Shown here one piece after another: positions 5,117-9,545 of a DNA stretch of 14,817 nucleotides. The number at the start of each line of letters is the position of its first letter. Positions within the stretch are counted from its first letter, which is position 1. The DNA is taken from NCBI GenBank assembly GCA_003444615.1, contig DLUN01000078.1:1351-16167 (forward strand). Direction: 5' to 3'. The stretch comes from Syntrophomonas sp. (GTDB taxonomy: Bacteria; Bacillota; Syntrophomonadia; Syntrophomonadales; Syntrophomonadaceae). Made by a program: the position numbers and the translations under genes. Below the pieces are notes generated by a model that had not been told where the DNA came from, made no database searches, and saw only the letters and a list, made by a program, of their open reading frames with translations.

Positions 5117-6964
5117 ATGTATAAGCCGGATGATTTCAATAATAAAATAATTGACGAGAATAAACTTATATCTCTTATCGAACCGGGAAATCGGATATTT
5201 CTCTCCAGTGGTTCTGCCATGCCTGTTAGGGTGGCAAAAGCAATTGCAACTTCTGAAAATCTCCTGGGTTATGATCTGGAAATAATTCAAATTACCGCTG
5301 CCAGAGATTATTTTACAGATGAGTCATCTTCTAACCGTAATTACCGGTATAAAACTTTTCACAGCGGAGAAACAGCCTTTGAAGAAGGCTATTCTGGAAA
5401 AAAAGATTATTATCCGGCCAATCTTTTAGAGATACCATATCTTTTCGCTATCCAAGCAATTGAGATCGACATAGCGGTGGTAGCTGCATCCCCCCCTGAC
5501 AAGCGGGGGTATATGAATCTTGGCATTGCCATTGATGTAGCGGATGAAGTTATTAAAAATGCTGCTGTTGTCATCGCCGAGGTAAATCCCAATATTCCCA
5601 TTACATATGGTGACACTTTGATTCATGTTGACCAGGTAGATCATATCATTTTTAGTGATGAACCTTTGATTGAAAGGAAAAGAACACCTTATGACAGTCT
5701 CCAGGATCGAATCGGTTGGCATGTAAGCAATCTTATTCCCGATGGAGCAACGGTTGTGATGCACGTGGGCAGATTATTTGATGCCATTGCCCATCACTTA
5801 AAAACTAAGAAAGATCTCGGTATCCTTACTAACGCTGTGTCCGATTGGGTCATTGACTTGGTGGAAGCTGGTGCGATTTCCAGGGATCGTAAGCGGGAAC
5901 TTGGCGGGCAGATAAATACTAGTTATTGTTATGGGACCCAAAAGCTGTATGATTATGTAAACAACAACCCGCTGATCGGGTTCTATCCTATTACCAAACT
6001 GGCAACCCCTCTTATTATTAGAAGAATTCCCAAACTCATAAGCATTATGAATGTAGAAAAAATTGATGTAACGGCTTCTAGAGTTCTGGTTTACGCAGGG
6101 GACGATCTGCTGTCAGGATATGAGAGCAAATTCAACTTCGCTGCGGGAACAGCCTACTCAGGCAGCGGCAAAGTTATTTTCGCTCTAAAATCAATAGACC
6201 AAAACGGAGAGAGCAACATCGTTATATCCCATACTGAGAATCCGGAAAGGGTCAGGTCGACCCTCAGTGTTGCCAGATATGTGGTAACTGAATATGGAGT
6301 TGCTTCTCTATTCGGCAAATCAATCAGAGAGCGGGTACTCTCCCTGATAGAAGTTGCCCATCCTGATCACAGGGAAACTCTTTTTAAGCAAGCGAAAGAG
6401 AGAGGTTTTATTTATCCTGATCAGATATATAGATCCATCGCTGCCAACTACCCTGCCCACCTCGAAACAGTAAAAACTTTCAAAGATGGATTGGAATTAA
6501 GAATCCGGCCCATAAGAGCCTCGGATGAAGATATGATGAGGAGACTTTTCTACAAGTTCTCCGATCAATCGAAATATTACCGGTATTTTAGCAGTGTCAG
6601 AGTAATGCCTCATGAAAACATGCAGAAGTATCTCAGCGTGGATTATGAAAATATCATGTCAGTTGTAGCTGTTCACCAACATGGCAACGTTGAAAGAATA
6701 GTTGCAGAAGCCAGATATGCAGCATATCCAACAGGAGATAATTATGAGATGGCTTTTCTAGTGGATGAGGAATTCCAGGGCAAAGGCATAGCCACTTATC
6801 TGGCGGAATTTCTAATAATGATCGCTAGAGAAAGAGGAGTTAAAAAGCTCAGTGCCCTGGTTTTGGCTCAGAATGCCATGATGCTGGCGGTGTTTGATAA
6901 ACTATCCGTAAAACCCGTAAAACATTATGACGGGGATACCATTGAGTTGGAATTTCATCTCTAA
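5117..6964 (+). CDS. CoA-transferase-like domain fused to GNAT acetyltransferase
   Basis: A 615-aa two-domain protein. Residues 1 to about 445 match the acetyl-CoA hydrolase/4-hydroxybutyrate CoA-transferase family: SPPDKRGYMNLG, IAEVNPNIPITYGD, and VVTEYGVASLFGKSIRERV with E392-Y-G. Residues about 460-615 are a GNAT domain (LRIRPIRASDEDMM at its start) with the acetyl-CoA loop Q554-G-K-G-I-A. The family's catalytic glutamate, normally in a GIHTEMFSDG-type motif, appears replaced: here the segment is GILTNAVSDW with Asn239. The usual GGQxDF loop is also altered (ESKFNF). So the N-terminal domain may bind acyl-CoA without transferring it, and the protein may be mainly a lysine or small-molecule acetyltransferase. 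ATG at 5117 follows TAGGAGGG. Transcribed alone: long gap upstream, strong terminator downstream. Domain calls are confident; substrate is unknown. Confidence 0.88.
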   Translation: MYKPDDFNNKIIDENKLISLIEPGNRIFLSSGSAMPVRVAKAIATSENLLGYDLEIIQITAARDYFTDESSSNRNYRYKTFHSGETAFEEGYSGKKDYYPANLLEIPYLFAIQAIEIDIAVVAASPPDKRGYMNLGIAIDVADEVIKNAAVVIAEVNPNIPITYGDTLIHVDQVDHIIFSDEPLIERKRTPYDSLQDRIGWHVSNLIPDGATVVMHVGRLFDAIAHHLKTKKDLGILTNAVSDWVIDLVEAGAISRDRKRELGGQINTSYCYGTQKLYDYVNNNPLIGFYPITKLATPLIIRRIPKLISIMNVEKIDVTASRVLVYAGDDLLSGYESKFNFAAGTAYSGSGKVIFALKSIDQNGESNIVISHTENPERVRSTLSVARYVVTEYGVASLFGKSIRERVLSLIEVAHPDHRETLFKQAKERGFIYPDQIYRSIAANYPAHLETVKTFKDGLELRIRPIRASDEDMMRRLFYKFSDQSKYYRYFSSVRVMPHENMQKYLSVDYENIMSVVAVHQHGNVERIVAEARYAAYPTGDNYEMAFLVDEEFQGKGIATYLAEFLIMIARERGVKKLSALVLAQNAMMLAVFDKLSVKPVKHYDGDTIELEFHL

Positions 6965-7727: not shown

Positions 7728-8690
7728 TTAGGTAGCATAAAGTTCTAGCTGTTCTTCAGATATTCCGGGAAATATGGAAACGGCTACACCCATAGCCATT
7801 ATTCTAGCTGTGTTTTCAATTATTTCATCTATTTCTTTAGGAGTTACACCCAGACTACCTCCATAAAAAGACACAATTTCTTGTATGCTGTTGCGGGACC
7901 TTATCTCATCGTACATAGCACCACTGTCCAAACAGAACTTTCTGACCGCCTGATCAGCGATTACCGCTGCATTTACAATGGTAGGGCAGCCTATAGCGAT
8001 AACGGGAACACCCAAGTCTTCCTGAGTGATGGCATGACGGGCATTGCCAATTCCAGAACCGGGTTGAATGCCGGTATTAGACATTTGGATAGTTGTGCCA
8101 ATACGCTCCACATTCTGTGCTGCCAAGGCATCCACGACTATTAACAAGGCTGGTTGAACACTATCCACAATGCCTTTGATTACTTCGAAAGTTTCTAAAC
8201 CCGTTATACCCAGAACACCGGGCGCTATACCACAAGTTGGCCGCATGCCTTCCACTAGAGCCTGGGGAGCGTATTGATGATAATGGCGTGTTATAGGACT
8301 GTACTCAATAAATTTAGGACCTAAAGAGTCGGGAGTGGCTCGCCAGTTACCTAAGCCCACCAGCAATACGGTCTGATCAGGGGACAAATCCTGTCCTACC
8401 AGTACTTTCATACTTTTGGCCATGGCTTTTATGATTTCTTCTTTGACATAGGGATCATTAATTTTTAAGGGAGGAGATTGAATAGTTACATAAGTACCTA
8501 TTGGTTTGCCAATTTTTTGGGCACCGTTTTGATTATTGATTGTAATAGTGTGTATCTTCACATTATTATCCATCTCTTCAATTGTTTCTACTACTCCCTC
8601 AATTTCTATATCTGCAACGCCGCGCACAATATCCCGGGCTTCCACAGCTAGATCCACTCTAAGATCAAAAGTCTTAATTATCTCCTGCAT
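7728..8690 (-). CDS. gpr: Germination protease GPR
   Basis: Made as a zymogen in the forespore, it self-processes late in sporulation and at germination cleaves alpha/beta-type spore proteins to supply amino acids. Length is 320 aa (Bacillus forms are about 370). Family marks: RVDLAVEARDIV near the N-terminus, which is preceded by only about 10 residues, GLGNWRATPDSLGP and LLIVVDALAAQ. The two aspartates, Asp121 and Asp187, have the same 66-residue spacing as the catalytic Asp127/Asp193 of the B. megaterium enzyme as I recall it. ATG at 8690 follows AAAGGAGGA on the minus strand, and a near-perfect sigma-G promoter lies just upstream. Convergent with a SASP gene and a SASP-like microprotein, its likely substrates. 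Confidence 0.96.
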   Translation of the reverse strand: MQEIIKTFDLRVDLAVEARDIVRGVADIEIEGVVETIEEMDNNVKIHTITINNQNGAQKIGKPIGTYVTIQSPPLKINDPYVKEEIIKAMAKSMKVLVGQDLSPDQTVLLVGLGNWRATPDSLGPKFIEYSPITRHYHQYAPQALVEGMRPTCGIAPGVLGITGLETFEVIKGIVDSVQPALLIVVDALAAQNVERIGTTIQMSNTGIQPGSGIGNARHAITQEDLGVPVIAIGCPTIVNAAVIADQAVRKFCLDSGAMYDEIRSRNSIQEIVSFYGGSLGVTPKEIDEIIENTARIMAMGVAVSIFPGISEEQLELYAT

Positions 8691-8757: not shown

Positions 8758-8853
8758 AAAATAAAATGGCGACTAGGACAGTCGCCATTTTGGGGAGAGG
8801 AGAATTTTGTAAAGTTGTTGGGGAGGGTTTGTTTTTACCAGACTTATCTGGCT
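8758..8853 (-). ncRNA. Candidate forespore small RNA (CsfG-like)
   Basis: Minus-strand RNA of about 95 nt predicted from its parts. In order: a sigma-F-like promoter (8859-8888); a 5' hairpin CCAGA-TAAG-TCTGG (8838-8851); an unpaired A/C-rich stretch carrying ACCCTCCCC (8820-8828) and TTCTCCTCTCCCC (8792-8804), both able to pair with Shine-Dalgarno sequences; and a 12-bp terminator with TTTTATTTTA tail. No reading frame fits on this strand. It lies directly upstream of rsmD (ylbH), and from memory the sporulation-specific RNA CsfG of endospore formers lies by ylbH too, under sigma-F and sigma-G. Homology to CsfG is inferred from position and architecture only. Confidence 0.6.
8763..8791 (-). 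terminator. Terminator of the candidate small RNA
   Basis: Perfect 12-bp stem AAAATGGCGACT / AGTCGCCATTTT with a 5-nt loop. Read on the minus strand it continues TTTTATTTTA, whereas the plus strand reads TTTTGGGGAG, so it acts on a minus-strand transcript. No annotated gene lies upstream on that strand. Confidence 0.8.
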
Positions 8854-8858
8854 ATCCA

Positions 8859-8888
8859 TATCATTACCCGGTTAAATGGTTTCTATAC
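8859..8888 (-). promoter_or_regulatory. Sigma-F-like promoter of the candidate small RNA
   Basis: Minus strand GTATA (8884-8888), a 15-bp spacer and GGTAATGATA (8859-8868). Compared with the sigma-F pattern GYATA / GGNRANANTR, the -35 is exact and the -10 matches 6 of 7 defined positions. The start would fall near 8853. Confidence 0.5.
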
Positions 8889-8978: not shown

Positions 8979-9545
8979 TTGCGAATTATTGCAGGTAAAG
9001 CCAAGGGAAGAAAGCTGGAAGCGCCACCTGGCATAAAAACCCGTCCCATAACCGATATGATCAAAGAAGCTTTGTTTAACATACTCAGTGCCAAGGTGCC
9101 TGACAGCATTTTCTTAGATCTCTATGCAGGAAGCGGAAGTGTGGGCATTGAGGCTCTAAGCCGTGGTGCAGCTAAAGCGGTTTTTGTAGACAACGATCAT
9201 CAAGCAATTAAAGTTTTGCATCAAAACCTGGCTAAATGCGGTCTGCAGGGTGAGGTATATCGCAGTGACGTATTTGATTTCTTAAAACGTGCTGTTCGCA
9301 ATAAACTTACCTTCGATATAATTTATGCTGATCCACCTTTTACTCAGTCATCTTTGTTTGAGCGGACTTTGCACTCTTTGGATAATGATGAACTGCTCAA
9401 TTCAGGGGGAGTAATAATCATAAGAGTCCCTCGTAAAAGTGAGCTAACCTCTAGACTGAATTGGATCGAACTGGAAAGGGAAAAAGCTTACGGTGAATCA
9501 GTCTTATATTTTTATCGCTCGATTAAAGAGGGAGGTTCCATATGA
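8979..9545 (+). CDS. rsmD: 16S rRNA (guanine-966-N2)-methyltransferase RsmD
   Basis: SAM-dependent enzyme that methylates G966 of 16S rRNA (E. coli numbering) in the small subunit. The 188-aa length is typical. Motifs seen: N-terminal RIIAGKAKGRKLEAP, RPITDMIKEALFNIL, SAM-binding LDLYAGSGSVGIEAL (46-60), acidic VDND (70-73), and the catalytic DPPF (118-121) in YADPPF. The start is TTG at 8979 with GAGGGA (8964-8969) upstream; an ATG at 8962 is out of frame. Its stop overlaps the next gene's ATG in an ATGA arrangement, so the two are translationally coupled. In Bacillus the next gene is coaD; here it is not. Confidence 0.95.
   Translation: MRIIAGKAKGRKLEAPPGIKTRPITDMIKEALFNILSAKVPDSIFLDLYAGSGSVGIEALSRGAAKAVFVDNDHQAIKVLHQNLAKCGLQGEVYRSDVFDFLKRAVRNKLTFDIIYADPPFTQSSLFERTLHSLDNDELLNSGGVIIIRVPRKSELTSRLNWIELEREKAYGESVLYFYRSIKEGGSI

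Follow-up and report, generated by a model that had tools for sequence, protein, structure and literature searches.

A putative Syntrophomonadales form of the forespore RNA CsfG with an open and nearly invariant core

The window, by which is meant the whole stretch of 14,817 nucleotides of Syntrophomonas DNA that was analysed, holds a predicted RNA gene on its minus strand between the genes gpr and rsmD. Comparison across genomes supports the reading that this RNA is an ortholog of CsfG, in a form special to its order, the Syntrophomonadales, and with a predicted structure different from that of CsfG elsewhere. The favoured interpretation, to which a probability of about 0.6 is given, is that csfG of this Syntrophomonadaceae-like spore former yields a sigma-F-dependent forespore transcript whose C-rich motifs would pair in trans with ribosome sites. 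The locus is made up of the following elements.

7728..8690, minus strand: gpr (spore protease; TIGR01441, 333 bits), the next gene downstream of the RNA and on the same strand.
8763..8853, minus strand: predicted RNA gene csfG (CsfG) of about 90 nt, its start placed from the promoter and its end from the terminator.
8763..8791, minus strand: intrinsic terminator with a stem of 12-13 bp, then T-rich DNA on the minus strand; covarying.
8792..8832, minus strand: core predicted to be unpaired, ACAAACCCTCCCCAACAACTTTACAAAATTCTCCTCTCCCC, 41 nt, of which the last 38 nt are near-invariant.
8792..8804, minus strand: C-rich motif 2, UUCUCCUCUCCCC, directly 5' of the terminator and common to other-family CsfG.
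8820..8828, minus strand: C-rich motif 1, ACCCUCCCC (window letters ACCCTCCCC), common to many other-family CsfG copies.
8837..8852, minus strand: 5' hairpin GCCAGA-UAAG-UCUGGU of 6 bp, a predicted fold that covaries in the order.
8859..8888, minus strand: sigma-F-like promoter, with GTATA at 8888-8884, 15 nt, and GGTAATGATA at 8868-8859.
8979..9545, plus strand: rsmD (ylbH; TIGR00095, 168 bits), the divergent neighbour of the RNA.

The preliminary description of this DNA, made from its letters, had placed an RNA gene on the minus strand between gpr and rsmD. The TIGR01441 and TIGR00095 matches on either side bear out that placement, and every one of the small RNA elements that it named was found where it had been put, with TCTCCTCTCCCC at 8803-8792 on the minus strand as the second C-rich motif. 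The terminator is present with its T-tract on the minus strand, although the stem measures 12-13 bp rather than the 12 bp given for it, and the stretch described as open is indeed predicted to be unpaired, whilst being an almost invariant core and more than merely A/C-rich. Folded on the minus strand, the window RNA reaches -24.5 kcal/mol (z -5.1), a value equalled by 0 of 200 shuffles. A terminator scan of 801 bp returned one site where 0.7 would be expected and is by itself not significant; it is the conservation across the order that excludes chance for the RNA gene.

Within the order the hairpins of csfG vary with compensation and the unpaired core hardly varies. A search with the rsmD of the window gave 30 loci, many of them from Syntrophomonas or Syntrophomonadaceae, and the core lies upstream of rsmD in 26 (the exceptions are L016, L026, L027 and L029). 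With up to three mismatches allowed, a single copy of the 38-nt core was found in every one of 16 genomes from the window's order, against none in the 382 other Bacillota genomes searched. These 38 nt, which comprise ACCCUCCCC, an A-rich linker and UUCUCCUCUCCCC, are letter-identical in 47 of 53 distinct copies from the order; four further copies have one changed letter, one is shorter by a letter and carries a change, and one contains two N. The neighbouring rsmD has 45-57% amino-acid identity to most Syntrophomonadaceae-like relatives, and the invariance of the core does not appear to come from a lack of divergence time. For the helices, an alignment of 39 copies (43 were found and identical ones were left out) displayed changes on both sides of 10 pairs, in 37 cells. 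Column shuffles gave 5.3 and 10.1, and controls with slid alignments no more than 4 pairs and 10 cells, whilst further pair types in these 39 copies were not above shuffles (19 against 17.9). Both-side changes affect five of the seven pairs of the 5' hairpin. The hairpins and C-rich motifs picked out in the window are conserved in related genomes, the former through covariation and the latter as parts of the identical 38-mer.

The promoter upstream of the order's csfG is, judged from its letters, of the sigma-F/sigma-G type. It scores 11 out of 11 in 43 of the 53 distinct copies, 10 in nine and 9 in one, with a score of 11 reached by 0 of 1060 mononucleotide-shuffled controls, 10 by 18 and 9 by 217. 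Because the promoter is conserved and the helices covary, the view that minus-strand csfG is a separate, selected RNA with its own promoter and terminator is supported. A small protein-coding gene has next to no chance of being the correct reading in its place: a minus-strand ATG at 8858 does, by eye, read through the core in the window, but a start followed by an open frame through the core is found in no more than 32, 21 and 20 rows for the three frames, out of 118 with duplicates included, the third positions of the core are invariant and the flanks differ in length by non-multiples of three.

The gene csfG is divergent from rsmD in 52 of the 53 distinct order copies, the remaining stretch being without rsmD, and in 49 of 52 copies gpr comes next on the downstream side, in the orientation of csfG. 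This last arrangement, which extends to the decayed copies L317 and L318 and to two of eight other-family loci (L486 and L488), favours a reading of the element as a 5' leader or attenuator of gpr, with the terminator controlling read-through, but that reading is unlikely. A sigma-F/G-like promoter proper to gpr lies between the terminator and gpr in the window (about 8745-8717, by eye), and such promoter motifs are found, with a loose and uncontrolled pattern, in part of the other intervals. Moreover, gpr is missing from the flank in three of the 52 copies, some of the intervals between terminator and gpr are 200-440 nt long, and six of the eight other-family loci are without a gpr match.

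The reading of csfG as a separate RNA leads to the question of its relatives in other families. That CsfG lies at ylbH, which the preliminary description had stated, is confirmed by the passages of PMC3574147 on this locus. Its suggestion of a CsfG relative also held, as the site and orientation at rsmD, the type of promoter and the ACCCUCCCC and UUCUCCUCUCCC motifs are all common to CsfG; the likeness to CsfG of Bacillus subtilis covers the rsmD/ylbH place and orientation, a sigma-F/G-type promoter, the CCCC/CCCUCCCC and UUCUCCUCUCCC motifs and a terminator that follows motif 2 directly. A covariance model, R1, that was built from 39 sequences of this order only, the window included, recovers other-family CsfG beside rsmD. 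R1 scores 102 bits at 8854-8756 in the window, which is itself in the model, and matches 54 of 61 genomes of the order, two decayed copies included, and 23 of 382 other Bacillota genomes at 27-44 bits; R1 searches over more than 40 genomes ran with stricter filters, and weak matches were lost. Among these 23 genomes rsmD could be placed in 14 (its position was known for 10 and the rest were judged from eight fetched loci); in 13 of the 14 the match sits next to rsmD in divergent orientation, and in the lone exception, G043, it lies 3.5 kb from rsmD. When L486 is aligned, ACCCUCCCC and UUCUCCUCUCCC are matched and a hairpin arm stands opposite the A-rich linker. CsfG of other families carries CCCC or CCCUCCCC either in the loop of a hairpin or 5' of it, followed by the 3' arm of the hairpin near GCUCUUCCUCC, then UUUCUCCUCUCCC and then the terminator.

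Amongst 30 loci collected by pattern (L047-L076, chance matches included), rsmD lies within the stretch in 18, divergent in 17 and on the same strand in one (L049). The loose pattern CCCCN{5,34}TTCTCCTCTCC is unspecific, with matches in 209 of 398 genomes, and this count was set aside; TCTCCTCT is found antisense in 14 of 60 stretches upstream of rsmD, mostly of genomes without the loose pattern. Viral copies of CsfG were discarded as candidates: at least 120 stretches of viral contigs carry a loose pattern, none with rsmD among the matches listed, and the four that passed a motif filter are unlike CsfG. In family f40 (L486, L488) CsfG is followed by gpr in the same orientation, with rsmD divergent, and the order gpr-csfG-rsmD is not private to the Syntrophomonadales. 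Decay of the core is seen in genus g272, in L317 (genome G439) and L318 (genome G415), where R1 scores 47.7 and 32.8 bits and the promoter-like letters, the 5' hairpin, the terminator and the adjoining rsmD and gpr are retained. Both g272 genomes have strong sigma-F/G matches, and SpoIVA is present in G415. The draft genome G431 contains two different csfG-rsmD loci (contigs C35 and C39), each resembling another genus, which is probably due to contamination.

The Rfam model, named in the preliminary description as a check, does not call the window RNA: RF00516 gives 18.1 bits against a gathering threshold of 50. This family, called the ylbH leader, belongs to the same locus as CsfG but is modelled on the opposite (plus) strand, and the account of the locus in PMC3574147 identifies it as the antisense strand of CsfG. 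Its name would make the element a plus-strand leader of rsmD, in keeping with the plus-strand model and its weak match on that strand, but this is very improbable. The promoter consensus of 53 copies is on the minus strand, as are the terminator and its T-tract in the window, and the northern signal that PMC3574147 describes for this locus in B. subtilis comes from the minus strand only. Amongst 20 other-family CsfG loci RF00516 passes in seven and stays at 24-43 bits in 13; CsfG is under-annotated, with an Rfam model that is on the opposite strand and misses those 13 of 20. The remaining weak Rfam matches, including MicX (E 0.006 with a 241-nt query, 21.8 bits against a gathering threshold of 75), fall mostly on the terminator and were taken as chance.

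It is in its predicted architecture that the minus-strand RNA of this order departs from CsfG elsewhere. In the order copies the parts of the core have a mean predicted unpaired probability of 0.97-0.98, with values above 0.8 for all three of them in 47 of 52 copies. The sole predicted hairpin lies 5' of the core, with none carrying or separating the C-rich motifs, and these conserved motifs are predicted to sit in single-stranded regions, as is characteristic of CsfG. A hairpin at the motifs is predicted in 31 of 44 other-family copies, when the most favourable of three flank lengths is used, whereas the form of the order has none and is distinguished by a 5' hairpin that precedes the core and by a nearly invariant A-rich linker. 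The central hairpin is absent by prediction in 13 of the 44, and its loss seems not to be private to the Syntrophomonadales. The hairpin form occurs across many other families, and on this ground the hairpin-less form is taken here to be the derived architecture. Amongst the titles listed from the open-access literature, none reports the hairpin-less order form; CsfG of B. subtilis was reportedly described by Marchais in 2011, and that description may cover related forms. The variant sets apart the kept part, two C-rich motifs that precede the terminator in a fixed order, from a central hairpin that may be absent, and thereby permits a direct test of the working part of an RNA that is kept in many endospore formers.

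The distribution of the RNA follows that of sporulation sigma factors. In the window, a SASP gene neighbours the csfG locus, as does gpr. In a search for the sigma-F family, the best match was 1.7e-86 or better in 57 of the 61 order genomes and weak only (8e-27 to 2.5e-36) in four; the curated sigma-F cut-off was passed by one of the 61, and the strong matches are read as sigma-F and/or sigma-G. All 54 RNA-bearing genomes are among the 57, and the four genomes without a strong match (G407, G434, G436 and G442) have neither the RNA nor SpoIVA, which gives a Fisher p of 7e-5 over the 61 genomes with kinship and draft incompleteness uncorrected. An R1 match is absent in G405 (98% complete), G428 and G449 despite their strong sigma-F/G matches. 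Within the order, SpoIVA tracks the RNA less closely than the sigma factors do: 49 of the 61 genomes have both it and the RNA, five the RNA only, three SpoIVA only and four neither (p 0.007, with incomplete drafts among them).

Beyond this set, the locus L016 has rsmD but, unlike L025, no core, gpr or SASP in its 4.5 kb, and its genome (completeness unstated) is without a SpoIVA match. SpoIVA was present in 42 of 48 genomes tested from the rsmD-upstream set, and the motif lies at rsmD in none of the six genomes without it. Since 31 of the 42 show no motif at rsmD, many spore formers among these 48 genomes, a biased sample, are without CsfG, carry it elsewhere or have a copy that has diverged too far. 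Genome G121 (L073, 80% complete) has CsfG at rsmD yet no SpoIVA match. The relevant part of PMC9147052 states that disrupted sporulation sRNAs caused no obvious sporulation defect.

For the proposed mechanism, it is likely from the promoter that sigma-F, and perhaps also sigma-G, would transcribe csfG in the forespore. The C-rich motifs, kept open between the 5' hairpin and the terminator, could then bind the G-rich ribosome sites of mRNAs in the forespore by pairing, which would lower the translation of these mRNAs, as the C-rich regions of RoxS do. The block of translation that the preliminary description had proposed would fit this class of C-rich sRNAs. The sections of PMC8216469 and PMC4409812 on these RNAs count CsfG among the three C-rich-region sRNAs of B. 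subtilis, give no target or role as known for it, and describe the C-rich regions of RoxS as pairing with ribosome-binding sites. RoxS/RsaE and FsrA thus offer an analogy in their unpaired C-rich regions, which the CsfG of the order appears to have in common with them, but they are described in this literature as controlled by ResDE and Fur. Copies without the hairpin still keep the motifs, so that the working part should be the C-rich motifs rather than the hairpin, and the almost unchanged 38-nt unpaired core points to the core as the working part. It counts against the mechanism that ribosome-site pairing alone would not require a near-invariant A-rich linker.

A tentative idea is that CsfG in the Syntrophomonadales has been cut to its essence, a 38-nt open strand that would be read end to end by one conserved forespore partner; if true, the order would be the place to find the long-missing partner of CsfG. 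As a rival to ribosome-site pairing, a CsfG ortholog whose core is bound along its whole length by one conserved partner, be it a protein or a single RNA, is doubtful. The nearly identical core is predicted to be unpaired whilst both flanking helices vary, its linker varies no more than the two C-rich motifs do, and CsfG of B. subtilis co-purifies with Hfq according to the passages of PMC3574147 on it. Outside the order, however, the letters of the linker differ and often form a hairpin arm, so that a linker partner would be specific to the order. In addition, a search of the 61 order genomes for stretches of 18 nt that nearly complement motif 2 and the linker, with three mismatches at most, gave no order-wide recurrence among the matches listed; the exact ones examined there are csfG itself and the others recur, by eye, within a genus at most.

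For the favoured pairing with ribosome sites, no conserved CsfG target emerged from duplex, complement and start-region tests. In genome G263 a home-made gene caller supplied 2273 start regions. The ten strongest duplexes that the 41-nt core forms with them average -31.2 kcal/mol against -27.5 to -31.0 for 12 shuffled cores, and this strength, only marginally beyond all 12, was rejected as a target signal. Exact 12-mer complements in G263 number 51, with 30 in csfG itself, and the 21 that are left compare with 3-33 in 25 shuffles. Median percentiles of start-region pairing gave no signal for gpr (0.60), SASP (0.53) or rsmD (0.24). The best start-region complement in G263, 15 nt without a mismatch, covers the ribosome site of a gene read here as lipid-kinase-like (L439, C1:2046677-2046696, minus strand), and 15 nt or more was reached by 11 dinucleotide and 5 mononucleotide shuffles out of 300 of each kind. 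Its pattern, which allowed TTG and so also matched csfG, has a non-csfG match in four other genomes of the 61; in the three of these four whose locus was inspected there is no lipid kinase, and the candidate was dropped as unproven.

Two further genes of G263, L357 and L412, which are trpB-like and trpD-like by our own reading, have the ribosome site GAGAGGAGA and are possibly CsfG targets, or a coincidence. In genome G022 (L057) the ribosome site GGAGAGGAGAA of a lipoprotein-like gene complements CsfG motif 2 over 11 nt; G219, from the same genus, has similar-looking matched letters at C18:39968-40000, and both genomes have CsfG. Elsewhere in the window, 5117-6961 encodes an acetyl-CoA hydrolase/transferase fused to a GNAT acetyltransferase domain.
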